A stretch of 64,000 bases of DNA from Branchiostoma floridae (taxonomy: Eukaryota > Chordata > Leptocardii > Amphioxiformes > Branchiostomatidae). The DNA lies in assembly GCF_000003815.2 (NCBI RefSeq), contig NC_049981.1, positions 13,723,035 through 13,787,034 on the forward strand. The letters run 5' to 3'. The translations under genes and the position numbers were made by a program. The notes beneath the pieces were generated by a model. The model saw nothing but the letters and a program-made list of their open reading frames with translations, did no database searches and was not told the DNA's origin. The first letter of the stretch is position 1. Each line of letters starts with the position of its first letter. Positions 3,225-62,690 of this stretch are shown one piece after another.

Positions 3225-3426
3225 TCAGCACTCGGTTTCCAGTGCTGAATATTCGTCAGCACTCGTTTTCCAGTGCTGAATGTTCGTCAGCACTGGAAAT
3301 CCAGTGCTGAATGTTCGTCAGCACTCGGTTTCCAGTGCTGAAGCCGGCGTTTCGAGTGCTGAGAGCGCGTCAGCACTGGAAATCCAGTGCTGACGCCATC
3401 TTCAGCACTGGGTTCCAGTGCTGAAA
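3225..3426. repeat. array of about 7 short palindromes (cluster II)
   Basis: This is the same palindrome as at 2080-2600, here with a more regular pitch of about 31 bases: TCAGCACTCG/TGG, four- or five-base centre, CCAGTGCTGA, then spacers such as ATATTCG, ATGTTCG and CGCCATCT. One unit is a right half only (near 3353). Clusters I and II flank the 0.6-kb segment with the histone stem-loop. Confidence 0.85.
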
Positions 3427-12900: not shown

Positions 12901-15900
12901 TTAGTAAGTTCCGTTTATTGTCCCATGGACGTATGTCCATCTCTCTCTAACCCACACCCGTTTCATATAGGACCATGTGTTATTCAAAAGGTTTGTGACC
13001 GTTTAACTTTGCCTTTCCTAACAATTTCGCGTATGGTCGACACATCAGCCTTGGATGGGGTAATTGTGGGTATGGTTGGTGCCTGTGAAGTCGACGACAT
13101 GTTTTGTTGGGTTTTGCTTTGTGTGGATTCATGTTTATGAGCGTCTAGGTACACTCTGTTTGCCTTCTGTCTAAAACCTTTTTGCATTCTGCCATATTTA
13201 CCCACCAGAGCCAAATCTCGAGCTCTTGACTTGTGTATTGTAGGTGTTTCGTACGAAGGAGCGCCTTTCTGTCTTTGACGTCCAGGATCCTGATAATTTT
13301 GGTTAATCGCGGAAGGGTTGGAAGTTAAAATTTTCCGTGCCCGTGCATCCAGGTACACTCTGCTAGCCTTCTGTTTGAACCCCCTCTGTAGTCTGCCATA
13401 TTTACCCATCAAAGCTAAATTTCGGGCTCTTTCTTTAACAACTTCATACGGGGGAGCGCTGTTTTCTCTGTGACCTGCAGATTCTTGGTAATTTTCGTTA
13501 ACCGCGGAAGCGTAGAAAGTAATTGAGCTATCCTCGTCATCTTGTCCAGACAAATGTGCCTGCAATGACAGGGGGAGCGATAGGGGGCGTGATTGGGTAT
13601 TTTCGTAGTTGTAGTGTTCATCTTTGATTTCCCAGTAGTCATGATGGAGTGACGCTGGTCTTGTATTGTAGTACAAGAAGTACTCGTCAGGAATTTCTTC
13701 GTACTGTTGCTCATCACTAGAGGATGAAGCAAGCTTTGGGGTCGTCTCTACGTCTTCATCAGGATCTGCCGAATACTTACCCGCACTGACGGTGACAGTA
13801 GGGCCACTTGCTCCACTAACCATCCAGCTACTGCAGGACACAACACCAAGGGGAGACCCAGGACAGGCATTGCCAGCCTGTGCGGCTTGGTTCCCTCCTG
13901 AACAACAGCCCCACCTTCTCACAAAATAAGTGAGAAACAGTACTACGGCAGTGACCCCTATCACAGCTAATACCGTGACTAACCCCAGGTAACCCCAGGA
14001 TTGCTCTTTATCAGATCCAACTGTCACGAATGGGGCTGTGGAAGGCGTCGACACAGTGGCTTTGGCAGGCTGCTTTGTAGTGTTAGTCACCCCCTTCTCT
14101 CCTACACGGACGGTGTCATCAGGAGAGTTGCATAAGGGCGTGGTGAAGACATGTCTGTAGACCTTCCCACAGGTGTTGAATAGGCACGTCACATTCTTTA
14201 GTTCTTCATGCCCCAAGACAGTACCGTTTTTGCCGAAGCAGACAGCGTCCGACATGTTGATATTCTCGTTGCCAGTTGTAATGGCAGATAGAATTACAGC
14301 AACAGGGTGTGTTTGGTAAGATTTCTCTACACGAATGGATACAATCCGCAAATTCAGATCTTGGCTCAAAGCCACATTGACGATGCCAACATCCTTCCAG
14401 GAATCTCTACACAATTGATTGATACTTGTAGCATGTTCAGTGTTATTGACGTTTGATATGATAGCAATTGGCAGATCATACGACGCTTTGTCTGCTGAAG
14501 TCAACTCTAGGTTTAATATTTTACATTGAAGAACTATGTCCATGTATACCTGTGTGAGGGTATTATAATGGTGCACATGGACTTGATATCGCGTCATCCG
14601 AGGACGTTTTCTCATACAGAAAAGTACTTCATTAACAGTGACTGCAATAAACTCACCGGTACGTAAACGGTTATAGTCAAGTTTCCAGTTCTTTACCAAA
14701 GGAGCAGAAGCGTCAATGAGAGGTAATCTTCCTCCGACAATTAAGTCGTGTAGTTTGTGTAGCCCCCTTGTGGTATCACTTGACAGATACGTCAACAAAT
14801 TGTCGCTTAAGTCTAACTTGTCAAGGTCCCGAAGAAACATGAACGCTGTAGGATGTATGTTTCGAATCTGGTTAGATTTCAGAGAAAGATAGAATAATCT
14901 TTCCAGTCCAGCAAGCCAAGATGACTGAATGCTTTTCAATGAGTTATTGTCAAGTAGCAACCCTGTGAGGAAGCTGAGTTTTTGAAAGGGGGATGAGTCT
15001 ATGCTGCTAATGTTGTTGTGAGACAATGATAAACTGTAGAAAAAGTCTGGGTGCTTTAAACCGCTGAACCATTGTTCTTTGACCTCAGTCAACCCGTTGA
15101 AGATAATCTCTAATGATGACAATCGAGGAAACACACCTAAAACATGTTCACCAAGATCCGTAATTCCGCATTCAGCCAGAGTAAGGAACTGTATTTTTGA
15201 CTGCTGAAGCGGTCTAAGTTTCTCTACTGAGAGCTTACCAAGCGACAATCCTCTCACCGCTACATGTAAATTGTTAGGTAGGCATATTGGGGTTGGCACA
15301 GCTAGTACAGAGAGGTTCTTTTCATTAGCAACATGTTGTAGCTGCAACTGTGCGGTGGTACATCGGATACAAGCGGTGTTTTGCCTACCCATATCAGGGT
15401 GCATATTTGTATAAGACTTGCAATCAGGAAGGCAAGATGACCAGGAATCTGTATAATCATAATCACACCCAGGAAAGCATGGTATGTCTAAACTCTCACA
15501 TCTCATTAGAATGATAAGGAAAACTGCTACCTGTTTCGCCACCTTCATGCTGGATATACCCAAAATGTTTTTGATGAAAGGAAATCTATTGCTAGACGTT
15601 AGTGACGAGGGTCTCCTGATCACTCCCAGTTATGTGTAAGTTGTAGTAGGTTTACACACAGTCGGATGCCTTATCTGAAAAACAGTTGCAAACAATTCTT
15701 TGGCACCTCAGATGTACCCTGGGCGCCAAACTTAGGCTTAGGTCCCAATTGGAAAATGGGGCCCTGTGGGCAGTTCACGGGCTGATTTTTTTCACTTTCG
15801 GGCTTAAACCCTACGTGACCCCCAGGGGCACCTTGCGGCTCCCGGGGTATTTTGGGCCCGGCTGGGCACCGGGTTGAATGTAGGTCGGGCTTAAAATGAA

Positions 15901-41671: not shown

Positions 41672-41765
41672 ATGAAGTCGGGGTGGTACGTGGCGTTCGT
41701 TCTCTTCGTGGCGGGCTTGCTGGCTCCGTCAAGGGCCGACAAGGGGCAGGAGCACTGGCAATACG
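41672..41765 (+). CDS. GnRH-like gene 1, exon 1 (signal peptide and QEHWQY)
   Basis: 31 codons plus one base. Donor TACG|GTGAGA at 41766. The ATG context CCTGATGA is preceded by no other in-frame ATG in the likely leader. The same length as exon 1 of the paralogue. Confidence 0.85.
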
Positions 41766-44700
41766 GTGAGAGAAAATCTTCACAATTTACCAGTGTGTGA
41801 AAATGTAACACAGCAAAGAATCGACGTCGTGTTTCGTTGAATGTTCGTGATGTGCTTTAATGATGAACTAAATACCCATGGTTGACATATATACCATTTT
41901 TGCAAGTGATTGCAAGAATTGCAATACTAGAAAGATGACTGAAGTATTAAATAGTCCGTGCAACTGATAGCGTTTGCGACAGCAAAATGTTCTTTTGTGA
42001 TTTCAATGAATATCATACATTGCCATTACCATTTGCGTTCGTGTTAGGTCCATTTTTTGTTCAGAAAGACGTGGTTACGTGGAAAGAATCACCATTCAAA
42101 CACTTTACAGCATGTATGATCGTGTTGAAAAGAAAAGCTTGGATGTTTTCCACTTAATGAAGATTGTGCAGACTATATAATAGACATACGCCGTTTAAAG
42201 TTGCTTTTCTTCTGGCTATATTGCGTTGTTATTTACATGATGTCTTACTTGATATCTTCCTCGTCTACTACTCATAGTTATCTACCATGATCTGATATTT
42301 GGTGTTGATATTCATTCTGTCGTATCCTCGGACGTTTCTCATTTCGATTAGTAGATCCAGTGATGAAGCATTACTGAAGAGCAAACGGTCTACATATCGC
42401 GATGTATCTCCCTGTGAGGGGCATTGATACACACTATTTGTCTACAGACAGTATGGCTTAATTGTCAACATTCCAAACAGCGTTGGTTGTGGAACGGACT
42501 ACCTTTTTTTCGGTGAAAACAAGGGCATTTCCTGCGACCTCACTCGGTCCAACTATAAAACACACCATGCTCAATAACGCAACACTTCAAACCCTTTTCA
42601 GTGCACTTCAAACAACGAAAATGGCTTCTCATGCATTTCTAAGCAAAAAATTGCTTTGCTGCTCCCTTGGGCAACATTGTACCGTTCATAGGACTCCTCT
42701 GGGATGAAAATGACGTACAGGCGCACACAGGTCTCCATAACACGTTTAGCGACTACTTAACCGGTAATCCTGGAGTAAGTGGTTCGCCTGCACAGAAATG
42801 CCTGTGTCCATCGCTGTGTCAATCATCACCAGATGTGTCATTATATCATCATTCCTGAGAGAACGTTGTCCCATTTTACATGACACCAAACTCTGTGTCG
42901 TACGTATATCCTCCAAGGTCATGTGAATCCGGTTGTGTGATTGAAACATTTGTTTCATACAGTAGGAAAAAAACGTTGTTTAAAAAGAAGCTAAGCTTTG
43001 CTCTTGGTGCCCGGTACCAAGTCATCGACGAGACTGTAAATGTCTGACGAATAAGGCATTGAAGTCGACGAATAAAACCCCCATTGGCTAGAACATGATT
43101 TCATATTGTTAAGCTTCACTGACACGACAAAAAGTACAGTGACTTTTGTATGGTCAACTATTAACTACAAAAAGGAATACAGAATAGATCTTAAAATTCT
43201 ACTGATCAAACAATATAGAATGATAAAATTCTGCTAATTTAACAATACACGCACAGGATAATGAGAACCCTCCATGCAATCAGGTGGGGCTAAACGTACT
43301 GCAAAACAGTATCATAGTTTGTAGATGGGGAATTTCCTGTCATTTTCATCTGAGTGACCTGAGATTGGCCAATTATCTTTATATTACCTTCCCATTGGCG
43401 CCATGTGTTCTGGCCAGTAACATCGTATCCGGGCATGTTATGGCTCCTCGGAGGCTCCCTTTACACAGTCCACGCTAAAACGCTCGGTACAGTCTTCAAT
43501 CTTTTGTCTTATCGTCACGTAAAAGGTACCAAATCCGTGTCTGAGTGAGCGGTCGGCAAAATCTGTTATGATCATCTTGAAAGTTTTTTCTATGTTGATT
43601 GTTGTAGCTGAACAAAGAAATGCAATTTCCAGTGCAAAGAAATTTTCGACTTTCGGTATGAGTCTTAGCCAACTATAAGCTCACTTTTGTGTTGGGTGAC
43701 TCTTCTTCGCTTACTGTGAAACTATCGTGACGTTCAAGTTTACCGACTTGACAGCTGAGGTGGGCGGCACTAATGATGTACAAGACATATGGCAGCGCAG
43801 GACATGGCAGTGGCGATCCCAATTAGCCAAGGTTATCAGTCCTTAAAATCAGCCAAAAAGCCTGGCGATGCGAAATGACACGGACGCGGCTTGGCATCTC
43901 GACTCCGGGAAGATCTTAAATGTCATCGGGCGATTTCCCTCGAGCCCTGGCCTAATGGAACCGACTGTCTGAGGGTGTGGGCGGCAGTCTAGCTGAAAAT
44001 TGCAACCGATCTCTTCGCAATACGTTTTACTCCGCTGACATCATGCAATAAACCGTAGTTGATACCTGTATCACACCCATCACGAATGTTAACTTCAGTT
44101 ACACTCGTGTTGTTAATAAACCGCTCGTTTTCCAGTCGTCAAAAACCGTTAAGATGCTCCACGGATGAGAGTATCAGCCGTTTAACGCTATCATGGTTCC
44201 ATTTGCAGGAGTGTTAAAACCACATCGGATGACCCAGGGCAATAAAAACTACATTGAGGAAGACTATGATAATCCTATCACCATTAGCACTATGGTATCT
44301 ACGGGTTGCATCCGCTAAGTCTTTAATTTAACGACTTTGAAAAACAGCTAGCGGTAAAAAGAGAATAGATTGATTGATCATCACGAGTAGATCTTCAACA
44401 CGAGCTCATGCCTGTAAGAATTTTGGAGGAGGCCTCTGTAACTTTAAGCATAAGGTTTTACATATACATTGATATCAACGATACAATCTTTGCAAAAGTA
44501 CCTAGCGACATCATTTGTTCTTGATGATAACGATTGTGATAATTCTTACGTTATCTAAACTGTATATCCAAATATTACTAACAGTCAGGGTATGGTTTAA
44601 TGATGGGATTAACGAAAACTTTTAGAAGTTATTTAAAGTTTTATCCATATATACTTTACCTAGTACTAATCTTCATTCTTCTTTGGGCACCCACACTCTA

Positions 44701-47700
44701 GGTGAGTTCTGCTGAATATGGAAAAGTGATATTGTTCATGAAGTAGTGCGTGCCGATTTTAATTATTCAGATCATATATTCTCATATGATAAAGGCTTAG
44801 TTCATATTGTTTTTCTTTTCAAACTGAAAGCTGCGCTGCTGGTATTGTTGACACCCACAGGGCTGCAAATAAATGTAACAGAGAAAGAAACAATGAAGTA
44901 TTACTGCAATATGTTTTGTAATCGTTTCCAGATCTGGTCTATTGGTGAAGCGTATTCACAGCATCTGCCAATTACATTAGCAATAAGTCATATTCTTTTA
45001 TTTCATGGGTAGAACAACTATGGATGTTTCCATATGAATACTTCGCCGTAGGTTAGACATCCAGGTAATAAGATACGCCAAAAAATAGTTACTAAAGCAA
45101 CTGGATATGGTTTAGGAAACGGTCAGACGTTTCGGATAGATTCCACTATCCTTCGTCAGTGACACTGAAGTGACCTGGAAGAAACAGGTCTTTTACACTC
45201 TAACTATGAATGAAGACAATTTCAGTCGTCCAATAGGAAACGTCATAAGACAATTCAGACTGAAGACAATTTGGATTCCGTATGAATGTATGTGTGCGTG
45301 GGTGTACATGTATGTGTGTGTATGCGTGTGAGCCTGCGTCTGTGTGTGTGTCTGTCTGTGTGTGAGACTCTTTCTATCAGTGTAACGTTCCAATTCACGT
45401 CAACTGCATACAAATATTATTGATATCATTCATGTTCCAGGCAATTATGTTGTGTCTATGAATACACATTGAAACAACCATGTGTTTGCAAAAAATCTGA
45501 TTCTTTCCTCTTTCTTTTTTTAATTTTGATTTTTTTTTAGTACTTACTCACTTTAACATTATTTTATCTGTTTACCGAAATAATTGAGATTTAAGAAAAA
45601 AAATCTGGCTACGGCACACTACAAAAGTCGCTGTACATCACTACTAGTACTTTGGATAAAAAACGAAAAATGATTGGTTATCATGAAAATTAACGTCGTA
45701 CACCAGAGAGAAAGGATTCTTCACAATTTCATCTTGTGAATATAGTCCAACTTTCCAGATGCTTCTAACGTCATGCCCTTCTCCATTAAAGAAAGAATAG
45801 TTTAAGGCTATTCATAACGACAGGAGGTGTCCAACCTTATATCTTAAGCAATTACACAGAGCATGGTACTAAATATACAAGAAGCTCTCATATTAAGTGA
45901 TTTACATAATAACATTACCCGTATTTCACAGCTTATCCCTATGTAGAGCTGTCGAAATAGAACATTTCAACGCGATCTAACAAAGAATCGGGATGTACAA
46001 AACAATAGATAACTGTCAGTGAGTAATGTAGAAAACCAACACTTGAAACTTTATATGGACAACATATGATCAGAAATAATGTTATGACGTTACTAGAGCT
46101 GGAGATTCTCCATGTTAATCTATAGAACCGAAAGGCAGTAGGTATATGTAAAGACAGTAGGTATATGTAGAAACTAATAACGATTAAGTAGGGACTATGA
46201 ACTAAATGATGTTGTACATATAGAGTAGGATTGAGATGATGAAAATGTTTCAGTTGCCACCTACACATATTACTGTTTAGGGTTCACACTCATAACCATT
46301 GCTACTACGTGTATCTGTCATACATACAGGCGTTTGTAGACCATTTTTATTAAAGATGAAAGAGTTATGATGACCTAACCATTAGACAAAGGGACCCTTC
46401 CCTGAAAAGGGGTGATTTGGGGTCACGCCAAGCCATTAGCGAAGGCCTTTTGCTTCTTCGTTTGTGATATCATTTCCTTATTGCAGGAAATGCAGCATAT
46501 TTCATTGTCAAGTCAATCCTTTGTGCGAGCCCTCTCCCACACACGGCCTTTCATATGAGTATTTATCATCGTTTCTTTCTCCTACGGATGTGGCTGTCAG
46601 CGATCCTGTCCTAAAGCCTGAGCGTATATGATAGCAAATTGCTAACTTTGACGACAAAAGGTCTTTCATTCATGATTTCCTTCACAAAATGACCTTTTAG
46701 TAAAGAGCACACGTTCCTCCTGGAGAGTATATAGCTCGTTATGTTCTACAGCTCGTCTCCCGAGTGCTGACCCTGGTATCACCTCACAGTATACACCATG
46801 TGCAGATTAGGTGGTAATTGGGCACATGCATCTCACGAAGAGTTCTCACACACGCACGCGGCCGTGATTCATGACCATATGATGATCGTTCGTCCTGCCA
46901 ACAAGTTTTACCAAACTTCCAGCGAGAAATATGAATACTTGTTGCTTTTGATATGGGATAACTACAAACATCAAAGCCCAGTGCTGTGCGTCTGTTGTCC
47001 TTTGTTGTAAGGCGCATGCTGAGCCTTTGGGGATATATCTTTCATTTCACCTTTCAAGAGGAAATGCACAATTCAACGTGGAAATGCACAATTCAACAAT
47101 ATTGCCAAGTAACAGTCAGAGACCTTAGTTGGAACTTGGAGGCAACGCTTATTCGGCTTGCTTTGTAAATAAACTGCTGACCAGGAAGGAAAGGTCATCG
47201 TTTTGGAGCTCATTTTTAAAACATTTTTTAAAGATTCTTTTTACAGATCTTATCTTTGAAGATGGAAACATTCAACATGGCAACTACCCATGCGTTACAG
47301 TCAGACACCTCAGTTGGAGGCCTCTCTTATTGGAGATGCTCTGCACATGAGTTGTTGACCAGAAAGAAAAGGTCATATCTTGTTTAAAGCTACCTATCAA
47401 ATAAGCAATGGGGCCTACTGGACAGACTTGTCTAGAACCTTCATCATTTGCCGACCATTTCTGTAATAAAGTCTTGACTCTAGAGAGATCAGAACGGCTT
47501 GGTGAGAGGAAAATCATGTATCTTAATTCAATGTACCGAAATGATGTGTCAAGAGACAACTTTTTTCACCTACGATGGATCCGGACGTATTTCTTCTGCT
47601 CTGCCAGTTCGGATGGCACACGTGAATGGCTGCCCATCTAGTTCAAAAGGCTGTATCTCTAAGGGCTAGTCTGTGATTCAAACTGCTGATTTCATGAAAG

Positions 47701-50700
47701 ACAAAGTAACGTCTAGACGGCATAATAAAAGTTAGAATAACTAGTTTTTACAGGATCAGACATGAGTTACCAGGCAATACGTGTTGGCGTCTGCCATCAT
47801 CGGTTATGGATACTCCCGGCGTCACAACATATATAGTCAGCCATGAAGCAACTTAAAGACGCATACACGTGACTCCAACAACTCAACGCACTGCACCTTT
47901 CTCACAGAGACACTGAACTTTTATATACTGCATTTGTTTGCCGTAATTTACATGGCAGCTTTTGCAGTCTTTATGATGTTAGAGTTCATCCATGCTCACT
48001 AACAGTATGAGTGCTTTGCACTCTCATTGTACACTTTATAGAAATGTTATTTGTGGCGATGTGCAAGGTTACGTCAATGTCCTAGGGTTAGGTCACGTAC
48101 AAGGTTTACATTTTCCTCGGGAATCTGCTTCTCAGCGATGTGTGTGATCCCTCGTGGATTCAGTATGAAAATCAGTTTGCACTTCCATCCAATAAAAACT
48201 TTCTGCGCAATGGCTGTCATAACTTCATATGCCTTGTAAGCATTTTAGTTATTCCATTCACAGTAGCTGTTCTGTGCCAAACAGCTAAATCGAACCATGG
48301 TATCACCATCATAGAGGTTCTAGCGATGCCCTGTTATCAATCATGACACATCAATGGATCATAACTTAACATCGCATCGATCGATACGCTAGATTGCCCC
48401 ACATCGACTAATGGGCTAATGCAGACCTGCAGTCTGTAATAAGTGGATCAAACACAAATCATCAAAGATAACCAATCAGGAAAGGGTTAACGTTGGGGCG
48501 TTCCTTCGATGAGTGAACCGGTACAGTAACTACATATTTAGGTCCCGTTGAGTCTTGGTATCCAATATGATTTAACTTTATGATTACGTCAACTTAGACA
48601 CTCTGTCCCATTTATGGAAACGTACCCCCACCCGCATTTGTGCCACAGTAATGTTTTTTTTTATTGTGTGGCTATTTGTAACTGAAAAGTTGATCACAAA
48701 AGTTGCAGGGTGTTTTTATCTAGATTGATCGTGTGGGGATGTTGCAACTGGACATTTTATACTGCAGTAATGGTTACATACATGTATCACAGCGTGACTA
48801 CATCACACTGATTAACTTTGCGTGTGCAGAGACTGAAGATACCTGTACAGCATCCTCTCAGTCATGTCGAGCTGCAGCTGCTTCCTTATGACTAAAGATA
48901 TCAAATCGTAGGTGTCTACAAACGGCAGTGTTTTACAATCAATAGTGCAGCTGTTGATACTTTAAGCCTTTCTGCCGAATCAACGGTGAAGTTAATCGTC
49001 GAATTGTACCATTAATCTGAATATGACAAGGCAATTATTGGTTGCTGGTAAATTACTGATATTTGTCATCGAATTAAAGATCCTAAGGCTAGTCAAATAC
49101 TTACAATAGTGGGGTTAAATCAGATTTGTCGTTAAGACCCCCTGTTGTACCTCCTCAAACACGGTACCCCATTTTTTATATTTTTATTCACAAACCATAA
49201 ATCAATGAACACTGTAATCTATTTACACAGCTACTATCTAACCATTGCTAAAACTTCCTTCCCCTAGACATATAAATACCAACATGTTTACACTACTAAT
49301 GATAACCATTGTAGGATATTTACGGTACCCCCATTTTACCCCCAAGATTCCCTATCCAAGATCAACCAGGGTCCTCCAGTTAATGTTAGAACCAGGAGTT
49401 CGACTGTGCTGCTGTGAGTTCCAGTGACATCCAGAAGGCAGCCAACTTGTTTTCAGAGGTGCTTATAGATCGACCTATGGGCTATGAAACAATACTGATC
49501 ATTTACTTGAAGGACATTGAGTGCATCTATATATAGATTAAATCCTATCTGTACCTCGCGGACGTCGGTTGCCCACCAAACGATCCCTGAACTCCACACC
49601 TTTCGGCATCCACTGACATCTAAGACTTATCAGTTTACCACACACTACCACTTCAGGGTCGCCCGAAGGTATCTCAACACAACGCACCTATGAGACTTCA
49701 GAGTGCCAGGCCTTTGGATGTTGGATTAAAAAAGCAGCACAGAAAATCCTATTAATAGTTTGTATTTAATACCTGGGATGTGCGTTAAGACGCAGATGTC
49801 TTACTGTAAGAAAGCAGTCCCTATGAGGGTGCCAATTAAATTCTATGTAGGTGCAAAGGAGCTTAGCAAACATCCTCTGGCTTGTTGTAGTTGTAGCAAT
49901 GTAGTCTGGTTGGATACGTGTTACTTGTCAGGTCTACACCCGTGGATTTAGTTGGATCGAACATTTTGTAAGGATTTGGTTTTTACGATTCATTCCGTTT
50001 ACAGGAATATGAAGCTATGATACAATTGCAAGAACAATACATTTGTAACGTTAGGTCCGATTGTTGACCCATATTTACAACAACGGACAATGCCTGGGCA
50101 GAACTGATATTGAGTTAGAGTCAGGATCAAAGAAACACTCAACTCATGTGATAACTAGTATTCATTTAGGTTAGGTTGTCTGCTTTAATTTAAGTATATG
50201 TTGTTCCAAATAAACATGTAGTGAATTTAAAGTGCAAAACCATGCTCTGTAGCCGTAAATATATGTAAGGCATTTCTAAGGTAGATGACTGAGTGTGGAA
50301 AGTAGTATAAACCATGCACTCTTGCGACATTTACGAGAATTGCATATGCTACGCCAGTTGTGACGTCGAATAACTGAGTGGCTAGGCGTCCGGACACGAG
50401 ATAGGCGGCACCAGGGTCACAGGCTCAATTCCTAGAAAGTCTGACTGAACTTAAGGTAGCAGAACACTGTTTTTGGTCTATAGTTAAGGGCCTCAGGGTG
50501 ACTGGCTTCGACGCGGAAAGAATATAGTAGGGTGCCAATCGGCAATACAAACAACGGACATGTTTGAGTTTAGGGTACAAGCCACAAAATACCATTTTAA
50601 AAAATCCTGTCGGCGTATCGCCTTCTCACGCCCACTCTGAAACGCCGCTCTGCGGAGGTCAAATAGCTGCAGCCGGCTCACACAAGAAAGGCACATGCGC

Positions 50701-51577
50701 AATGCGGCGCATTTATACACGAAATACAAAACTGTCACAATCCAAATCATACAGTCTCGGAATCACCATATTCCTTGACCACACAGCACAGGTTATATCT
50801 GGCTGCCTCTCAAATAAGGCTTTTTACCTCTCCTTCAACAAGTTTATCCGTACTACTTTTATATGTGCTCGCGTCATAGACGGATAAATACTGTGTTCGC
50901 GGATAACTACTGTGTTCTGGTACATTAACGCGGCTTTCCTCATCCAGCTAGGTGTACAATTTGGTACCTGAATTCAGTTGGGGAGATGGATAGGGTTCTT
51001 CTTCCGATACCGTTCACTTAAGACAGTAGATAACGACCCCGACTGTCCTAGGGTCAAAGCCTCAAAAGGCTGTGGAACCAAACCTTTACATTTTTACACC
51101 AGCTAGATATTTTATTCATTCCAACCATTCACTGTTTAATCTAGGGCATTGGTACGGCAAGAGGGACCCATCTGACGTAAACAACGCACAGATTGATGAC
51201 GTACTACGCAGCCACCCTGAACTACAACAGCTGCTCAACAAGTTGATGGAGTTGCCCCGCAGGCCCAAGGCGTCATCACAGATGTACACTAAATATGATG
51301 ACGACTATCCTGATGGTGACGTGTCCGACTCAACAAAGCGTGTCCTCGAAGAGCCCGGGTCGCCATATTGGAAAAGAGTGGTATGTGATTGATTTTGTTT
51401 TCAATTCTGAACTTGTTTTAATGTCTTGTTCTTAGAAAATGTATTTCTAACGATGATTTTGTACTCACGTGTTGGTAGGCAGAGGAAATGGTGAGAGAAG
51501 GTTGGCTACTGAGGGGCCATCCATCAATGAGGAAGAAAAGAGCTGCAGAGAGGGACCCAATATGGCGTCCATGGTGA
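41672..51577 (+). CDS. GnRH-like hormone precursor (peptide QEHWQYGHWY-amide)
   Basis: Exons 41672-41765, 51145-51380 and 51479-51577 join in frame to 142 residues. Signal peptide core WYVAFVLFVAGLLA, then ADKG, the hormone QEHWQYGHWY, Gly (amide donor), Lys-Arg and an associated peptide of about 100 residues. The hormone is the GnRH-like peptide I recall from Branchiostoma. It shares pGlu, HW, a (Y/F)G core and a C-terminal amide with vertebrate GnRH, and should be secreted and act on GnRH-type G-protein-coupled receptors. The associated peptide has a leucine-rich helix (LQQLLNKLMEL), an acidic YDDDYPDGD, SPYWKRV-AEEM and a KKR site near the end. Exon 1 ends one base into the central Gly codon. 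A paralogue lies downstream on the other strand. N-terminal processing is unclear, because DKG sits between a likely signal cut and the Gln. Confidence 0.9.
41766..45049. other. intron 1 of GnRH-like gene 1, first part
   Basis: No exon or clear repeat boundary recognised. Short open frames are unremarkable. Confidence 0.4.
45050..45185 (-). mobile_element. interspersed repeat, possibly Penelope-like, copy 1
   Basis: On the - strand it reads CACTGACGAAGGATAG, a hairpin (GGATAG/CTATCC), GAAACGTCTGACCGTTTCC, CATATCCAGTTGCTTTAGTA and TTTTTTGGCGTATC. A second copy in + orientation is at 62561-62690 and a partial one near 53836-53890. The assignment to Penelope-like elements is tentative. Confidence 0.5.
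45290..45365. repeat. imperfect (TG)n microsatellite
   Basis: TGTGTGCGTGGGTG..TGTGTGTG..TGTCTGTGTGTGAG, an interrupted TG tract. Confidence 0.8.
47060..47375 (+). repeat. tandem duplication of about 180 bp
   Basis: Two related copies (about 47085-47195 and 47265-47375) share TTACAGTCAGA.ACCT.AGTTGGA, GGC..CGCTTATT/CTCTTATT and TGTTGACCAGAAAG.AAAGGTCAT. In intron 1 of GnRH-like gene 1. Confidence 0.6.
47641..50362. other. intron 1 of GnRH-like gene 1, later part
   Basis: No exon recognised on either strand. Confidence 0.4.
50363..50442 (+). mobile_element. tRNA-like sequence, probable SINE head
   Basis: The A-box-like TAACTGAGTGGCTAGGCG (near 50371) resembles class II tRNA (Leu/Ser) A boxes. 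42 bases downstream is a B-box-like GGCTCAATTCC (50422-50432). No complete cloverleaf can be drawn, so it is a tRNA-derived relic rather than a tRNA gene. Confidence 0.4.
50553..50855 (-). repeat. interspersed repeat, copy 2 (inverse of 21790-22030)
   Basis: Starts TGTTTGAGTTTAGGGTACAA and contains CGCCTTCTCACGCCCACT and GCGCATTTATACACGAA; ends TTTTTACCTCTCCTTCAACA. All of these occur reversed at 21790-22030. It ends 290 bases before exon 2 of GnRH-like gene 1. Confidence 0.75.
51145..51380 (+). CDS. GnRH-like gene 1, exon 2 (GHWY-GKR and associated peptide)
   Basis: Acceptor TTTAATCTAG at 51144. The exon starts with two bases of the Gly codon, then HWYGKRD. Donor GTG|GTATGT at 51381, phase 0. 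The upstream intron is 9379 bases. Confidence 0.9.
51479..51577 (+). CDS. GnRH-like gene 1, exon 3 (C-terminus)
   Basis: After a 98-base intron the acceptor TTGGTAG (51478) opens AEEMVREGWLLRGHP, a MRKKR basic site and PIWRPW before TGA at 51575. Support is the AEE(M/L) match with the paralogue at the same junction. Confidence 0.8.
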   Translation, partial: AEEMVREGWLLRGHPSMRKKRAAERDPIWRPW

Positions 51578-51884
51578 CGTCACTAGGTCACGTCCTGGGT
51601 CACTCGTCTCGATCTCCGGTTGTCGACTGTATGTCTGGTTCTCAAATCACAAGTATCTGTCTCCGGTCAATAATCGTCAAGGAGTTGTGCAACTGATCAT
51701 CATAGCACTGTTCAGATCGGCCAGATGTCAAAGATGACGTCACATTAAAGAATATTTGTATGTTGCACACTATTAAAGATACGGTATGCCCTAAAACATA
51801 TATGTGTACATGTAGGTTGGAAGATGTAAGACATTGCTGCATTTATACGGTAAACTCATGACAGCAAGTCACTCTAGATGTTGG

Positions 51885-51890
51885 AATAAA
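51885..51890 (+). terminator. AATAAA polyadenylation signal, GnRH-like gene 1
   Basis: First canonical AATAAA after the stop (308 bases). An ATTAAA at 51744 is an alternative. Confidence 0.5.
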
Positions 51891-53478
51891 TCCATTTGAG
51901 CCTGAACTAAGATTATTTTTACGTTACTTATTATAGACATGCAGATATTCGAATGTATTGCTATATGCCAAGGCAACTGAATACGTTTATAAAGATTATA
52001 AAGAAATATGAAGAGTTTGTGGCCATTTGGGAGGTCACCGCGATGACCAACGGAGATTAAGATTTTTTTCAATCTAGAATATCGATTTTTACTTTTACTC
52101 CGTATATTGGCAGAATATCTGATAGTCAAAAACTTGTAGTTCGCATGCACCATTATGCGAGAAACCGGGAAAATAAAAGATTGTTCTGTGTAATATATTT
52201 TCTCCTTGGTTGTTGTGTGTGCATTGTGTTTCTTTGTTTATTTTTTCAATGCTATACGGTTGACACGAAGTCCTTCTGTATCAAAACGAAATACAAGGGC
52301 TGTTGGGTAGTTAGTAGTTGGGAGCTTCGAAGAAAATGGTCGTGTGTTTTGACGGTCTAGTTCAATTTGAAGCGTCCCCTACCTATACGTAACAGAACTA
52401 CAAACTTTAAGTCAAATCCACCATGTCATTATCGAGGGTGCTGTTGTAGCCAATGGCAATGCCCTTTAATAGGGACTAACATCTGTTCATCAACCGCATG
52501 TCATCAGAAGACTTTGACGTGTTGATGATAATTTCTTTCGAAACTTTACCTTAATGTTTGGCCTAAGGAAATCTCCTAACATTTGTAAAGAAGAAATGCT
52601 CGTGCATGTGATTTGAAATATCAGGACTACATGTATTTATTGTCGAGTCTTTCCTTGCTGATTATTCCCCGATTTCACGTGTACATCACAACTAACAATC
52701 ACGTCATTTGTAGGCACATGGCAATGACGTGAACAACTTTAGCTCAACACAAAACCATGCAATATTTGCAGTACCCAAATAGTTGTGCAATTTGATATAC
52801 AATAGTATATATGACCACACCTTTTAAGTCTGGACCAATTGTAATCGTCTCTGAAAACATGCTTATCCTCTCTAAATCTACATATTAGTTGCGATATTCT
52901 TTCGCATTCTGCGATACCTACAATACTAAGTTGCAATGGGCGAGCCCAAGCTCTTTCATTGTATGGAAATGAGCTAATGGCTTTCTTTAATTCCCAAAAC
53001 ATTCAGAACCAACGCTGGCTAATCTTTGCTGGCTCCATACTTAAGAATCAAACTGCGTTTAGGCACCGTTGACCACGAGTACTCTGAAGCAACCACTATC
53101 AGGAAGACATACTTTCAAAACTTAGAAGACGTATTTTAACTTTTGGTCCATCGATCAACAAACACATGTACTTAATAGGTATTATACTTCTTCTCTTAGC
53201 TCTTAATACCGGAATCCTACTTACTTAAACAAATCGGATAGAACCATGATAATCTTATCATCCTTCTAACATCGATCTACCTGACAAGTCCATATCCTTG
53301 GGCTACTCTTCGAGTCTAGGCTATGGATTATCTGACTAAGCTCCTCTTTTCCCATTTCAGTATAATACTTTCTTCTTTCTGAGTAATGCGCCTGGCTAAA
53401 CAAGTAACAGCAAGGCGTAATGACGCTCTTCTCAAGCACTCCTTCTAACACCCTGACCACCTTAAGTGATCAGTTATC
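51891..53478. other. intergenic region between the two convergent GnRH-like genes
   Basis: No exon recognised. Candidate polyadenylation signals for the - strand gene are ATTAAA (52991-52986) and AATAAA (52641-52636); neither is close to its stop. Confidence 0.4.
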
Positions 53479-53613
53479 CTATTTGAGAAACATCGGCTCC
53501 TGGTAAGGGCCCTCAGTGCGGACGGCTGATCGTCGCCATCTTGCAGCGGGTGAGAAGCTTCTCTTCGAGGAGCTCTTTTCCAACAGCAGGGACTGCTTCA
53601 TCAGCTCTTCCGC
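53479..53613 (-). CDS. GnRH-like gene 2, exon 3 (C-terminus)
   Basis: Acceptor CTTGTCATTTCAG (ends 53614), then AEELMKQSLLLEK and a basic tail to TAG at 53481-53479. The opening AEEL matches AEEM of gene 1 at the identical junction. Confidence 0.8.
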   Translation of the reverse strand, partial: AEELMKQSLLLEKSSSKRSFSPAARWRRSAVRTEGPYQEPMFLK

Positions 53614-56600
53614 CTGAAATGACAAGCGAGACATATTTGTCTTTCATTAGAACAATTTTACTTCAGTTTCTTCCACGGATGCTTGGCTGTTGCTACAACC
53701 TTCATCATGACGATTGACCCATCAATGCAGTCACGTGCACATGTCGACAGAAAATTCATCATCATCATCATCAGAAAATTAAAGGTACCTAAACGTAATT
53801 GTCTGTGGTGAATGATGATGGACTACTCAATTACAAGCAACCGGATGGGATTTTGGAAACGGTCAGACCTTTGGTCATGACACTTCCTTTCGCCATGTAT
53901 TTTGTTTTCTGTCTACAAGATGATTATAACACGATGACTGTCTGTTGAGAAACACTAACGGCAATCTGATGATGTCATATGCCTCTGGAGATTAGCAAAT
54001 AAGCCTTGGGAATCATCATGCACCGCGCGTGAGCAAAGAAAATGTCCGTTTTCAACGAAGAATATGCCATGCCTTTCAGTCTTGCTTAGAATATAGATAT
54101 CATAGTGTCTGTTACCCTTTGTGATTAAACAGCGACAGAAGCTTTTACCGGTTCTTCATAATTTGTCTGCTATTTTAGTCTAAACCTAAGCTCTCTGTGT
54201 CGTTAGCTACGAGGTAATATTGTGACTATATCCTTAGGGAAACGTTAATGGCAATCAGATGATATAAGGCCATTGCTTCTGGAGATCATCAGGTAAGTCC
54301 TAGGATAAGCATACCGTGCACGTGAGCAAAGAAACTGTCGTTTTTAACGATTCCATGTCAACGATTCCAAGTATGTGCCAAGTACTGCCAAGTATGTTTG
54401 TTAAGACGTGGAATATTAAAGAGTGATAGATACCGTAAATAGTTCTTAAGTTATCGTCACGCTTGACTGTCATTTTACTGTTGCCATGCATGCTGGCACA
54501 TAATGTCTTTGTCTATAGATCCGATTTTTGCACATTTGAAACCTACATCTTATATTGTGGTCTGCAAAATAGTATGGCAAAAACCTTAATGTCAAAGAAA
54601 ACCGGAATATATTGAAAACCTTGTGACAATAATCCTTGCTATTTTAAAGTGTTTGCAAAGAGGGTCATCAAAATGAGATAAATATCCGTCCCGTACTCCA
54701 TAAAGATACACACATGATCACTTAACCTCCACTCTAACGACAAGCGAGAATTCCCGCGTAAGTGGTGTGATGACACTCAAGTGATCAATGAACGATTCCC
54801 ACTTCACTACTTCTGGCTCATCCTAAAAGTGCCAAGTGGTGAGTGTTTTCCTTGTATGTCTTGGGAGATCTAATGGATACAATGATCCTCTTAACATGAA
54901 AAATTGGTAGAAAGTTCCAGAGTTTCACAATGATGGGACTGAAGTTCACTTTTCTGAATTCAAGTTGTGAGTCCAAGTGACTGGCTTAAAAGCTTCACAA
55001 CTGTAACTGCAACTCTTCTCATCTGCATCTAAGAGATCCCCGACCCTTTTTTGCCAGAGGTTTTCCCTTTAACGATCGGAGTTGGCGTGACTGTATACAA
55101 CCGTATTACGCTTAACAAGCTACAAATAAGCGCTTTAGCACAAATGAGATGCTCTTACTACTTTGATCTTTATTCGCAAAGAAATTGAGACTCCGTCAAA
55201 ACCGTGATTACTATTGACTGCACAATGTCGACCGTGACTCCTAAGCTACATCATTTGGACAGAGCTCTTTGAAGGTATCTGCCTTCGTGCCAAAAGAAGA
55301 GTGGATGAATAAAGTGGATTTCCTCCCTGGCGTTAGATAGCTTAGACAAAATCCTGCCAATTACGAGAGGCGCTGCTATCCATGACCTCTCGGCCAGTGC
55401 CTACCAGGATCTGCTTTCAACTAACACTAATGTTCAAAGTGTTCTTTTGTGTTTGTAAGTATGCACTTCATAAATCATCAAAATTTTAACATTTGTCTTG
55501 AGACCACAAAGGAGTTACGGGCGGGATACTTTGGACATGAAACAAAGTTACCAGGGATTTGTCTCTAGTATGAATATTTTTACGTAGATACCAGCGGGGA
55601 TAAAAAGTCAAAATATGGCAATGTGTGTCTTAGAGATGGACGTTTGCACAAAACCTTCAAGAGGGAGCTGGGGTTCAGTTGGGACCAAACGCTGTTGATG
55701 ATAGATAGGAAAGAGTGGTGAATGATGATGGACATCATCGTGGGAAACGTAAAGTGACTATTATAGTTGTGGAATTGTATCCAATCAAAAGAAGGCAATG
55801 CTATCAATAACCAGTTCAGACATGGATGAATTATCACCATTATTGATATTTATCGTAGTTAGGCTGAGTTTTTGTAATATATGTATATGTAAAGTGTGCT
55901 TTAGTTACTAATAGGCAAAAGTTTACAGCCCAGTTGTCAGACAATGACAAATTGAATATATGCCCCCACTCCCTTTTCCCTTAAGTTTTGGTTCTGTAAA
56001 TTGTCTGCTATTATTTCAATACTAAAATCAATTACTCATTGTTTAGCCCAGAGGATACAAGTCAAAATGACTCCTTTCATGATTTAGTTAGATAGTACAT
56101 TAGCAATTAGCAATTACACAAAACCATATTGCCCTAGGCCCTAAAGCTTTTGATCCATGTCACCCAGACGGGATCAAGGTCTATCTCATTTTTAAATGCA
56201 TAGATTTAGGTTTTATAGTTAGTAGAGTGCATTTTTATGGCGCGTAGAATGTATAAACTTGAAATAAAAGCCTACCACCGCTCTCCAAAACGGCGACTCA
56301 GACAGCAAAAGACCTTCAACTATTGCAGACAGCTCTCGGCCATGTTGGTTCATCTCGTCATCACTGTAGGGGTACCGCTGTGCTGACGTCACCGACCTTG
56401 GTGGTAACGCCATCGGTACATGTTGTGCCGGTTCCTCTGACGTCACTGAATTCTGTGTAAGCTGTAGTAGTTTGGTGATGAGCCTTTCTGCATCGTCCGG
56501 GGCTATGATGCCGCCATCAGGCAGTGGTTTTCCGGAGGAGTATGTGGAATCTCTCTTCCCATACCAGTGGCCTGTAGACGGCAAAGTTGTGAAATCAAAC

Positions 56601-59600
56601 TTTGTGTCAAGAACTTTTCCTATAATAAGTACAGTGTACTTAAAGAACAATTTTCAGTCTTCGCATTGCTTATTTCAAGTGCTAGTGTGGTGTCCAAATA
56701 AACTGAAACCCAAACATTCATTCTTCCAATGAATCCATTGCCTATTGTGTTAAAATGGGTACCTAAACAGTTAGGTAGAATCAACTTGGGACACGAACAT
56801 AGCGTATTGATAGAAAACACTTTCTTTCAAACTGACCATATGCATAAGGTTGTGTTGATTTGATTATATGGATGACATCCGCGCACGCATCAGTTTTTGG
56901 TCATTTCAAGAAAAGTTTCAGCCATGCCGTAGATCGTACAAAGCAGCAGCAGTAAATCGTACAAATGAGCAGATATATGCCGTATACTGCAAAATATATC
57001 GGGAATAGCTACGAATGTCGTAGAATGTTAGAGTCAATTCCAATATGTAAGAAGATGTGAAAGAACAAAAATTCAAAGTCATCTGTTTAACCTTCCTGAA
57101 CACTTGATGTCATAATGAAGGAAGTTTTTTGAGGGGGGGGCTGTTTTTTATTCGCACCCCAGCACCAGGTCTGCAGTTTCCAAAAGATGCCATCCATATT
57201 ATCAAATCAACATGGCCTAATCGTGAAACATACTATCATAGCAATATCAATGGTGATGATAACAAAATCCCCAGGTGATTTGGTTGTTTTGCTAATGTGA
57301 AGATTCATCTAATCCGTAGCTGGAAACAGCGATTATGCGTTAATAATTCATAAATGACTCTATTATCCTGGTATCAGCACAGACTTCATAGTTCCAGCGG
57401 AAACAACATGCTGTACCACAGATTAGTGTTTAATCTCGGTTTCACAGTAAGATGATTGGAATCTTGGAAATGAGTCACAATAGGAAGACATAGTAGAATA
57501 GTTACATATTACATGATCTGATATAAGACAGCCTACTCGTCGATCATGAAAAAACACACGTTTCAATCGCTGTACTTGAAGTCTTCTGCTCGACGCCCAA
57601 GTAACGAATCTGGTAAGCAAGCAACCGAAGAGGCAACCAACGGTCATTCTAGGATAATTAGTAACGGGAAATTACGTCTTCGATGACCGCAGCTGGACAA
57701 TTGATGATAATCACACGGTAGCGGCAGGTAAGGCCACTTAGAAAGTCGCTGTCTCAAACACAGAGGCATTATGCATTAGGCAACCCTTGAAGCTGTCCAG
57801 CATGTCCTACTTACTGATCCATTGTTGGAAGGGTTAAGTCTTTTGAGACAGCCTTAGAATAGCCGTAGAATAAACGCTACATCCCCGTTATGTGGAGACA
57901 ATAGATTTTCTGTTATATCCATGGGGCGTAATAATAATGGCAAGAATATTCCAGAAACAGGAAGCTGTTTCCTGTCCCCTGGTGGGATCGCGATAAGAAC
58001 TGACGGCAAAACTGCGCTCTTCAAAAGGTTCAAGGATTGGAACGTCACGTAATTCTCAAAATGGGCTTGAGTGTATAATGGTAAAATGCAGGTGAAACTT
58101 CAGGTGAAAAGCAAGAAAATGTACATCGATCTTTAATAATGTCTGCTAGTATTATAACAATATTCTTATGATTTCTAAAAGCAATGTTAACAGATTAAAA
58201 AGAAAGAAATTCAACATTATGATGCGAATAAGATTATATAGTTAATCACCCCTTAACTCAAATATGCACCTTTAGGCGAGTACTTGATAGCTGTAGCAAT
58301 ATTCCGTAGATTCATATCTTAGTCAATGAGATGAAGGCTATTTCATGGCTTTTCAAAACGACACACTTGCTATATTTCGGGATAATCATAGTGTATCTAC
58401 GGAATATTGCATGTTTGCTGTTCCTAGAACTTTGGAAACTACTGCTGAATTCGAAAATCCAAACGCGTGCATTTTGTAGTATTTTGCAATTGACTGACAT
58501 ACGTCCTTTTGAAATCAGAACAGCTGTCATTATTGAACGTAGAAACACCAGCAACAGAAATGTGGCCTCTGACTACTTCTAAATCATAGATAACCAATTT
58601 TAGACTCAGGAATCAATGAGATTAGTTGGATCTAAATGTGATCCTGCCACTTATAGAAAGTCCTTTTAAAAACCATTAAGAAAACAGTCGATGATAAACT
58701 ATTAGCTATTGAATAATTGCATTACGCGCGTAGCCTAATGCCCCAGAAAATATGACAAAATGCTCTTGATGAAATTTGGTCAGATTTATTTCATTAGGAT
58801 GCCCAATCTGATGATGTGCAGGTCATTTCCCTTGGGAGCTCTCTTTTCAAACAATTTCACTCCAACTAAAATGAGAAATATTTTGTCATGGGCACATGAC
58901 ATGTTGCAATCCCTGCTATGGTCTCTGTAGGATTGATCCAATTCGGATATAGTGGCTACAAACCGTAACCGTAATGCTCATTGATTATGTTAATCTTTTA
59001 ACAGATTCTAATCATCCTTCTCCAAGTTTCTCATGGATGAAAATTGTCTATGGTGCTGGAACTGCTGATGTGTGCTCGCGGCGGCAAAATGTGCATATCA
59101 ATTCTGGGGATATGATGAGTTCTGATACGAATGAAACGGATGCCTCAGGCCACAGGTAGCTCTGCATGACCAATGATCCTTAACAGTTCCATAAATTACG
59201 GTAATCTTTGATCTTTTAGAAAAAAAGGTACCATCTTCCTTCATACTAAGATACACCAATCTGACTAGATTTTATCCACTATTCTATGTGCATTTGATTG
59301 ACTTGAAACGTAGAGCTACATTAGTTACACAATTGAAAAGGATTCGTCAGCTTTGCTTTCTTTTGAAGAGGTCTTCAATGATGGTACGCAGTGGCTGCCT
59401 ACTTTTGTAACAGGGAAGGGAAATAGATGGAGGTCACACCCTAAGAATCTGATATGTACGCCCGAACACCTCTTGTTCCTTACATCTAATTTCTCAAAAC
59501 CTGCCCGGGACGTAGTCAAGAGGGAGGATAAAAACATCATGCATGTGTCTCCCTTTCTTTCATGTTGCTTTCATGTTGCCTATCTTGTCTGCCAGCTCCT

Positions 59601-61385
59601 TTGTACACTTACTTTCTTTCATGTTTTCAAAGTAGCGAGAACATTACAAGCTTTCGGCCCGCGTTTGCAGTAGATAAAGGGAACGACTTCCGTTATGTAA
59701 CTGATGAATTGTTGAAAGATGTCGACGTCAAGTTAGGCTTTAGGCCTGTAAATGATACTATTGGAAATACATTTTGTACCTCCGAGAGAACTGAGAACAC
59801 TTTACGTTTCTGGCCGCAAAATAATCTATGTTCAAGATTAACTAAAAGATAAGACATGGCCTTTGGTATAGATTTGAAAGAACTATATTCAGTGTCATCC
59901 CATCAAAATTGATGGTTGATCTTTGACATGCAAATTACCTATTACACTGTAATGCATCATAAGGTCGTTATCACGAACCAGCCCTATCCGCACAAATTTA
60001 AGGAACATAGTTTACCTGTCAATTTGCCCAATAAATCGAGTTGATTGGTTGTCTTACTAATTCATTTAATAGCTGATTGATGGCAAAATAACCATTTTCG
60101 TCCGGAAACCTTTTAGCAAGAAAATGGCTTTGCTATTTTCTTCATTTTGAAATATTCATTTCGTGGCTCAGTGGAGCATGATGATTTGAATTTTGTTGGT
60201 TTTATAAACATAACGGATGGCAAATGATAAGCCTTTATTGTACATTCATCTCTTTAGGGCTGAGTACAGACATACAAACATAAAAGTCGTAATAAAATAC
60301 ATGTAGTTACAAGACTAAGATACTAATCTAAAACATGGGTCCTTAAACATACATAGGTTCGGTTTCTTCTGGTATCTTAGTTCTTAAGTGTTAAGAATAT
60401 GGGTTTAGACAGGTTTATTACTATAGCATGGTTAAAACGCATAAGAAAAACGAATTTTACAGAACTAGTCATAGATACAAAGTGAGGAAACATTCTAATC
60501 ATATAAAGAATATTCTTATCGTTACTATATCAACTGCGACCCACAGCAAAATCGACTATTCGGCTTCTACCTTATTCAAGATACAAAACTGACTCAAGTC
60601 ATTGTTAAAGCGAAACTGATGATGGCTGACAACAATGTGCGGCCAAGGAACTTATGAAGATTTTCTGTAGTAATCGAATATGAATCTTGACACTTTGTAA
60701 TTAGCCAGGAAAGTAGGAATATCGACCGAAAGTGAGCAATTTTCCCTCCCCTTGAGCGATTATCGATCATAATATCACTCACATGTCTTCATCGTGTCAC
60801 GGCTCGTTAAACTGGTGAAGACATGAGATTAAGCAACCGGGCAGATTTTCAAGGAGCTGTCGTTTAGCGGTCAAGATCACCAAAAAGCTATTCTACCGTG
60901 TAAGTTGATTTGTGCTCCTTTTCAACATTGGAAAATTTACTTTAGGCACAAAGCCTAGAAGCACTTTCAATAAAATTCCGCCGTGACACGTAAGTATCCA
61001 ACTGTCAGTATTTAGGATCAAAAAGCCATTAGCAAAAATTAGCAACAGCGCACCACAAGCACGTGCACAACAAACTAGTCTTTAAGTCTGGAAAGACATG
61101 TCCCCGGTTTGTATATCACTACTGTCATTCCATTCAGCTGAACACTTCTATTTTTGGAAAACTGACTCGAGAGCTACAATCATTACGGCCACTAATTGTA
61201 AATCATAACAGGACATTAAGTAAGATTTACTAATTAAGATAATATCGTTGCCTCTTCTGGATCAAACGTAATTAGAGGATAAGAAACTTACCGAACTGCC
61301 AGTGCTGTGGGTTGCTTCCGCAGCTGGATTCCTGCAAGGCCACTGATGCCAGCACCACTACTACCGCTAAACACCGCTCCAGCAT
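53479..61385 (-). CDS. second GnRH-like hormone precursor (core QHWQFGHWY-amide)
   Basis: Exons 61385-61292, 56571-56276 and 53613-53479 join in frame to 174 residues. Signal peptide core CLAVVVVLASVAL, then QESSCGSNP, QHWQFGHWY, Gly and Lys-Arg. The nonapeptide keeps pQHW-x-(F/Y)-G of vertebrate GnRH and GHWY-amide of the + strand gene. The associated peptide has a leucine-rich helix (ERLITKLLQL), YPYSDDEM, SPFWRAV-AEELM and a Lys-Arg in the tail (SSSKRSF). Exon 1 length (94 nt) and both intron phases (1, 0) equal those of the + strand gene, so the two are paralogues in tail-to-tail order. I do not recall a description of this second gene. How the Gln is exposed is unclear; a cut after SCG would leave SNP in front of it. 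Confidence 0.85.
56276..56571 (-). CDS. GnRH-like gene 2, exon 2 (GHWY-GKR and associated peptide)
   Basis: Acceptor CCGTCTACAG (ends 56572), then GC completing the Gly codon and HWYGKRD. Donor GTG|GTAGGC at 56275, phase 0. It is 60 bases longer than exon 2 of gene 1. Confidence 0.9.
56853..57212. mobile_element. MITE with 27-bp inverted repeats
   Basis: Left arm 56853-56879 begins TGTTGATTTGATTATATGG and right arm 57186-57212 ends CCATATTATCAAATCAACA; two mismatches. The adjoining GGATGACATCCGCGC matches the inner end of the element at 27525-28006, so both belong to one superfamily. It lies in intron 1 of GnRH-like gene 2. Confidence 0.75.
57213..60218. other. intron 1 of GnRH-like gene 2
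   Basis: No exon recognised. Open frames around 59340-59850 are long for the region but lack splice support and familiar motifs. Confidence 0.4.
60219..60340 (-). mobile_element. 3' tail of an interspersed element, probably LINE
   Basis: GATAAGCCTTTATTGTACATT followed by GGGCTGAGTACAGACATACAAA and a stretch of TACAAGAC.. is typical of element tails read from the reverse strand. GACCTTTATTGCACA at 2749 is related. Type assigned from memory. Confidence 0.4.
61292..61385 (-). CDS. GnRH-like gene 2, exon 1 (signal peptide and QHWQF)
   Basis: 31 codons plus one base, then donor TTCG|GTAAGT at 61291. The ATG lies about 70 bases past a TATA box. Codes for MLERCLAVVVVLASVAL at its start. Confidence 0.85.
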
Positions 61386-61450: not shown

Positions 61451-61553
61451 CTTTATATCTACTTTTGATGATGCGGGGGAGGAAGCGGACACACAGGTGT
61501 GCGTACCGTACAAGCTCTCAGAAGGGAGAGACTTGCGTAGATCGGTGACGTGG
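61451..61553 (-). promoter_or_regulatory. promoter of GnRH-like gene 2
   Basis: TATAAAG on the - strand (61457-61451) in AGATATAAAGGAG, 66-72 bases before the ATG, implies a leader of about 40 bases. A CRE-type CCACGTCA lies 161 bases before the ATG (61553-61546). Gene 1 carries the same word in its promoter. Confidence 0.55.
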
Positions 61554-62560: not shown

Positions 62561-62690
62561 CCTCTGTGTCACTGACGAAATGTAGTGGATTCTACCTGAA
62601 ATGGAAATTGACCATTTCCAAAATCATATCCAGTAGCTTGTGTAATTGCTGTTTGGCGTATCTTATCACCTGGACGTTTAACCTTCAATG
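62561..62690 (+). mobile_element. interspersed repeat, possibly Penelope-like, copy 2
   Basis: CACTGACGAAATGTAG, TGGATT, CTACCTGAAATGG, ATTGACCATTTCC, CATATCCAGTAGCTTGTGTA and TTGGCGTATCTTATCACCTG match 45050-45185 read in reverse. The short stem between CTGACGA and GAAA is kept with changed bases. Confidence 0.5.

Follow-up and report, generated by a model that had tools for sequence, protein, structure and literature searches.

To which neuropeptide family do two linked hormone genes of the lancelet Branchiostoma floridae belong, and what would the second of them encode? Both genes lie in a window of 64,000 nucleotides (NC_049981.1, here contig C3, positions 13723035-13787034), which is the whole stretch of DNA that was analysed, and the genome searched comprised 513,431,437 bases in 431 contigs. 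A preliminary description had taken both for genes of the gonadotropin-releasing hormone (GnRH) type. From the sequence, we hold it highly probable that both are bombesin/gastrin-releasing peptide (GRP)-type genes, gene 1 being the known lancelet GRP-like gene and gene 2 an old, functional paralogue of it that arose by local inverted duplication.

Exon plan of the convergent pair

Each gene could be built from three exons with open frames, and the predicted precursors are 142 (gene 1, forward strand) and 174 (gene 2, reverse strand) residues long, with the splicing of both genes deduced from the DNA sequence. The exons and the signals around them are as follows:

41672..41765, forward strand: gene 1 exon 1, signal peptide, DKGQEHWQY and base 1 of the Gly codon
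51145..51380, forward strand: gene 1 exon 2, remaining Gly codon bases, HWY-GKR and propeptide, with a phase-1 intron on its 5' side and a phase-0 intron on its 3' side
51479..51577, forward strand: gene 1 exon 3, through the stop codon
61292..61385, reverse strand: gene 2 exon 1, signal peptide, GSNPQHWQF and base 1 of the Gly codon
56276..56571, reverse strand: gene 2 exon 2, remaining Gly codon bases, HWY-GKR and propeptide
53479..53613, reverse strand: gene 2 exon 3, through the stop codon
51578..53478, no strand: intergenic stretch of 1,901 bp between the stop codons, with AATAAA/ATTAAA downstream of both genes (motif matches only)
61452..61457, reverse strand: TATAAA site that begins 72 bp ahead of the gene 2 start codon (motif match only)

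With 1,901 bp between their stop codons, the two genes are convergent (tail to tail). The four introns all have GT-AG borders, each gene has a first exon of 94 nt, and the intron phases are 1 and then 0 in both, with the phase-1 intron splitting the codon of the first glycine in HWQ(Y/F)GHWY. The gene 2 junctions proposed in the preliminary description (61292/56571 and 56276/53613) were reproduced exactly in the rebuilt gene model, and its picture of a linked, tail-to-tail paralogous pair with the same exon plan is borne out. Gene 2 resembles the lancelet GRP-like gene in its HWQ(Y/F)GHWY-GKR stretch, common to both precursors, in exon plan and phases and in its homologous tail; it differs in having Phe for Tyr in the hormone, in the N-terminal extension GSNPQ and in its longer precursor. 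The 513 Mb genome was scanned with a degenerate DNA pattern that stands for GHWYGK(R) and is blind to copies with a different hormone end; it had only two matches, namely gene 1 and gene 2, and its backwards control had none.

Bombesin/GRP type or GnRH type

In B. japonicum, DKGQEHWQYGHWY-NH2 is described as a neuropeptide of the bombesin type and as activating a G-protein-coupled receptor (PMC12002301, 2025, crediting Wang 2020), and this lancelet GRP-like peptide (B. japonicum/B. floridae) is exactly the product predicted for gene 1. The first peptide had been taken in the preliminary description for the amphioxus GnRH-like one, which agrees with its former listing as Amph.GnRHv (pQEHWQYGHWYa, to which none of four lancelet GnRH receptors responded; PMC5592718, a 2017 review), but it is now described as bombesin/GRP-type.

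In chordate bombesin genes, a phase-1 intron typically interrupts the peptide codons and an intron of phase 0 follows toward the C-terminus (PMC12002301); deuterostome GnRH genes have a first intron of phase 0 (PMC10321317). In both lancelet genes the first intron is in phase 1 and interrupts the neuropeptide codons, as in bombesin genes and not as in GnRH genes, and an intron of phase 0 falls toward the precursor's C-terminus. The intron of human GRP cuts the equivalent glycine. Each precursor is also predicted to carry a signal peptide and one amidated peptide followed by a dibasic site, as in the bombesin family. In GnRH precursors a glutamine usually stands at the signal-peptide cut, while here it is predicted mature residue 4 (gene 1) or 5 (gene 2), and both peptides end in WY-amide and not in PG-amide; these two marks are usual but not universal, since the GnRH of B. 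floridae itself has no N-terminal glutamine (PMC10321317).

That authentic GnRH is YSYSYGFAP-NH2 (PMC10321317), and we found it encoded on contig C4, with the hormone uninterrupted within one exon and a donor after it in phase 0 (read by eye). It is similar to the peptides of the pair in being a short amidated peptide right after the signal peptide, but its contig, its unbroken hormone exon and the lack of a common sequence core set it apart. It is extremely unlikely, in our opinion, that both genes are GnRH-type and that gene 2 yields pGlu-HWQFGHWY-amide, a reading which draws on the local resemblance between QHWQFG and QHWSYG (gene 2 scoring 33) and on the Amph.GnRHv listing of the gene 1 peptide (PMC5592718), and which is at odds with the GnRH gene on C4, with the phase-1 intron within the hormone (the bombesin plan), and with the lack of both a basic site preceding the glutamine and a proline-glycine end. 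A corazonin peptide pattern, run on the genome, gave no match, for which an interrupting intron is perhaps responsible.

When the peptides were aligned with the amidated end as anchor, four bombesin-type peptides, GRP and NMB among them, gave scores of +10 to +22, and eight GnRH-type peptides gave -26 to +5. Without the anchor, local alignment does not tell the families apart (15-31 for bombesin-type, 11-34 for GnRH-type), which explains the GnRH impression of the preliminary description.

The surroundings of the pair were also compared with those of the vertebrate genes. SEC11A lies within the vertebrate NMB/bombesin block (PMC8233351). With an E cutoff of 0.001, the profile TIGR02228 matched a single place in the genome, C3:15003188, which lies at a distance of 1.2 Mb from the two genes and where the translation is that of SEC11. 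Lectin_leg-like gave eight exon matches in two places, of which C3:10.97 Mb is ERGIC-53/LMAN1, 2.8 Mb from the pair, and C4:26.29 Mb is VIP36/LMAN2, on a contig other than that of the pair. SEC11C and LMAN1 adjoin GRP in vertebrates. The genes accompanying the vertebrate bombesin locus, SEC11 and LMAN1, are found on the same contig as the lancelet pair. For a random place, the chance of lying within 1.23 Mb is 0.5% and within 2.8 Mb 1.1% (C3 makes up 6.7% of the genome), where SEC11 and LMAN1 are not independent markers and were picked with the human loci in mind. The linkage suggests that the association of bombesin with SEC11 and LMAN1 is older than the vertebrate genome duplications. Alpha-kinase was not counted as a synteny marker: one place on C3 is nearest to ALPK1, another on C3 is ambiguous, and there is a further place on C13. 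The first of these is:

piece L015, 483-1004 (C3:18.02 Mb), reverse strand: alpha-kinase exon resembling ALPK1, located on the contig of the pair

With vertebrate GRP/NMB, the lancelet genes share the W-x-x-G-H core, the amidated C-terminus, introns in phases 1 and then 0, and linkage to SEC11 as well as to LMAN1. Four observations weigh against a bombesin/GRP assignment. The lancelet peptides end in WY-amide instead of LM- or FM-amide; the unanchored local score against vertebrate and tunicate GnRHs of the QHWSY type (27-34) is about that against GRP (31); the neighbours viewed within approximately 90 kb are not GRP neighbours (leucine-rich repeat (LRR) genes and, by eye, sulfotransferase-like and LRR frames); and neither gene matched Pfam Bombesin (PF02044), as full precursors or as 23-residue stretches. 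Human GRP and NMB matched the same profile at 34-35 bits. Since the published lancelet member, gene 1, fails as well, we take this failure to reflect the limits of a model with 14 positions, a marker usual for vertebrate members only. Run on the whole genome, the profile gave no matches, and its controls gave no signal either. A MAFFT alignment that included human GRP and NMB revealed no convincing homology beyond the hormone. In the end, the GnRH identity was dropped because of the gene plan, the C-terminus, the literature and the separate place of the authentic GnRH gene, and the C-terminal alignment and the SEC11/LMAN1 linkage likewise favour bombesin/GRP, so that a tempting misreading is corrected.

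Age of gene 2 and selection on its hormone

The precursor tails behind the hormone are homologous, with a local score of 83, which none of 2000 shuffles reached (shuffle mean 29.0, standard deviation 5.2); both contain SP(Y/F)W..VAEE, which spans the exon 2/3 junction. In the block of 12 codons encoding hormone and cleavage site, seven synonymous differences stand against one non-synonymous difference (5 synonymous and 31 non-synonymous sites; binomial 7e-6 under neutrality, and 1.3e-3 with the silent share set at 30%). The other two ungapped stretches carry more non-synonymous than synonymous differences (34.5 and 13.5 in signal peptide and mature start, 16.2 and 11.8 in the C-terminal block), and hence constraint is strongest on the hormone. 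The gene 2 hormone is under purifying selection. Because the synonymous sites of the hormone block are saturated between the two genes while the hormone is constrained, we regard the duplication as an old one and the second hormone as maintained by selection.

It could be argued that gene 2 is a decaying or silent duplicated pseudogene from which no hormone is made, as its precursor flanks have diverged strongly. We give this very little credence, since gene 2 retains its open frame, its splice sites, its signal peptide, GKR and the hormone, all unbroken, in spite of the saturated hormone-block synonymous sites, and seven of the eight changes in the hormone block are silent.

When the two loci were aligned as DNA, and self-overlap of pieces is set aside, the longest alignment was 122 bp at 79% identity and the others were at most 38 bp. 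The longest corresponds to a repeat of approximately 120 bp (79% identity) in two copies:

45050-45168, forward strand: copy in gene 1 intron 1
62563-62684, reverse strand: copy upstream of gene 2

Because the copies sit at non-equivalent positions, the repeat was taken as dispersed and outside the gene duplication. A recent inverted duplication was rejected, given that this non-equivalent repeat and the alignments of at most 38 bp are all that the DNA comparison of the loci lists. The inverted duplication proposed in the preliminary description fits the arrangement of the pair, but as an old event, with saturated hormone-block synonymous sites and no alignment longer than 38 bp at equivalent positions.

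Predicted hormone, possible action and origin

With a signal-peptide weight matrix, gene 1 is predicted to be cut after residue 22 (score 11.09), which gives the published 13-mer DKGQEHWQYGHWY. For gene 2 the best cut is also after residue 22 (6.84), with residue 18 nearly equal (6.70), and its product is most likely the 13-mer GSNPQHWQFGHWY-NH2, the exact N-terminal start being uncertain. In both precursors the glutamine lacks a preceding basic site at which it could be freed; the shorter mature forms named earlier (pQEHWQYGHWY and the nonapeptide pQHWQFGHWY-NH2) find no support in such a site and probably give way to the predicted 13-mers.

The string QHWQFGHWY was in no paper of the literature searched, nor was a second lancelet bombesin-type precursor described there (titles and abstracts; supplements, subscription papers and database gene models were outside the scope), and to this extent the earlier impression of an undescribed hormone stands. 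Gene 1 is already known, and gene 2 is apparently a further hormone gene of the bombesin type in lancelets, which would supply a likely missing ligand of this type for animals that branch close to the root of the chordates.

The known lancelet gene, gene 1, is expressed in the gut and the cerebral vesicle, according to a second-hand report (PMC8233351). For gene 2 we infer expression, processing and receptor action along the following lines. Its precursor would enter the secretory pathway and lose the signal peptide, most likely after residue 22; a convertase would cleave at GKR, and the glycine would become the C-terminal amide. GSNPQHWQFGHWY-NH2, or a form of slightly different length, would then be released, perhaps in the gut and brain, the reported expression sites of gene 1, and would act on at least one of the three lancelet bombesin-type G-protein-coupled receptors. 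Since the published lancelet bombesin system has one peptide and three receptors (PMC12002301), the gene 2 peptide is a natural candidate for a second ligand. A lancelet bombesin system with two ligands, evolved apart from GRP/NMB, in which the peptides differ at the core Tyr/Phe and in their N-terminal extensions and the receptor affinities differ, is possible, with chances that we put slightly below even. If true, gut and brain signalling could be split between the gene 1 and gene 2 peptides. The suggestion of two ligands for several receptors, made earlier for GnRH, survives in this way as a possibility, but the ligands would not be GnRH-type.

Two bombesin-type genes are present in the lancelet and in the vertebrate lineages, and the lancelet pair has its contig in common with SEC11 and LMAN1, so one could suppose that a tail-to-tail pair was already present in the chordate ancestor and that GRP and NMB each descend from one member. 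This is very unlikely in our judgement: HWQxGHWY and the C-terminal SP(Y/F)W..VAEE block are present in the lancelet pair and unseen in human GRP/NMB, and SEC11A in the NMB block together with SEC11C beside GRP points to whole-block duplication of one vertebrate locus. As the tail block and the GHWY end are common to the lancelet pair and unseen in human GRP and NMB, the sequences suggest that the lancelet doubling was independent of the vertebrate GRP/NMB split. The two would then be a testable case of parallel hormone doubling, with GRP/NMB in vertebrates and the convergent pair in lancelets.

Elsewhere in the window, a single open frame of 880 residues (12990-15629, reverse strand; LRR_8, E 2.8e-21) looks like a one-exon LRR membrane protein, and further LRR-coding regions lie at 11886-12881 and 19489-20951 (both forward strand), the latter adjoining a 26/78-bp tandem array (19711-19911) after an assembly gap (18942-19303). 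Downstream of the window, a frame of 780 residues (piece L006, 231-2570, reverse strand) is similar by eye to a LINE-type retrotransposon protein. Two tandem arrays, at 2124-2326 (31-bp) and 3225-3425 (83-bp), have an inverted-repeat-like core, CAGCACT...CCAGTGCTG, and many chance QHW matches fall in this array stretch.

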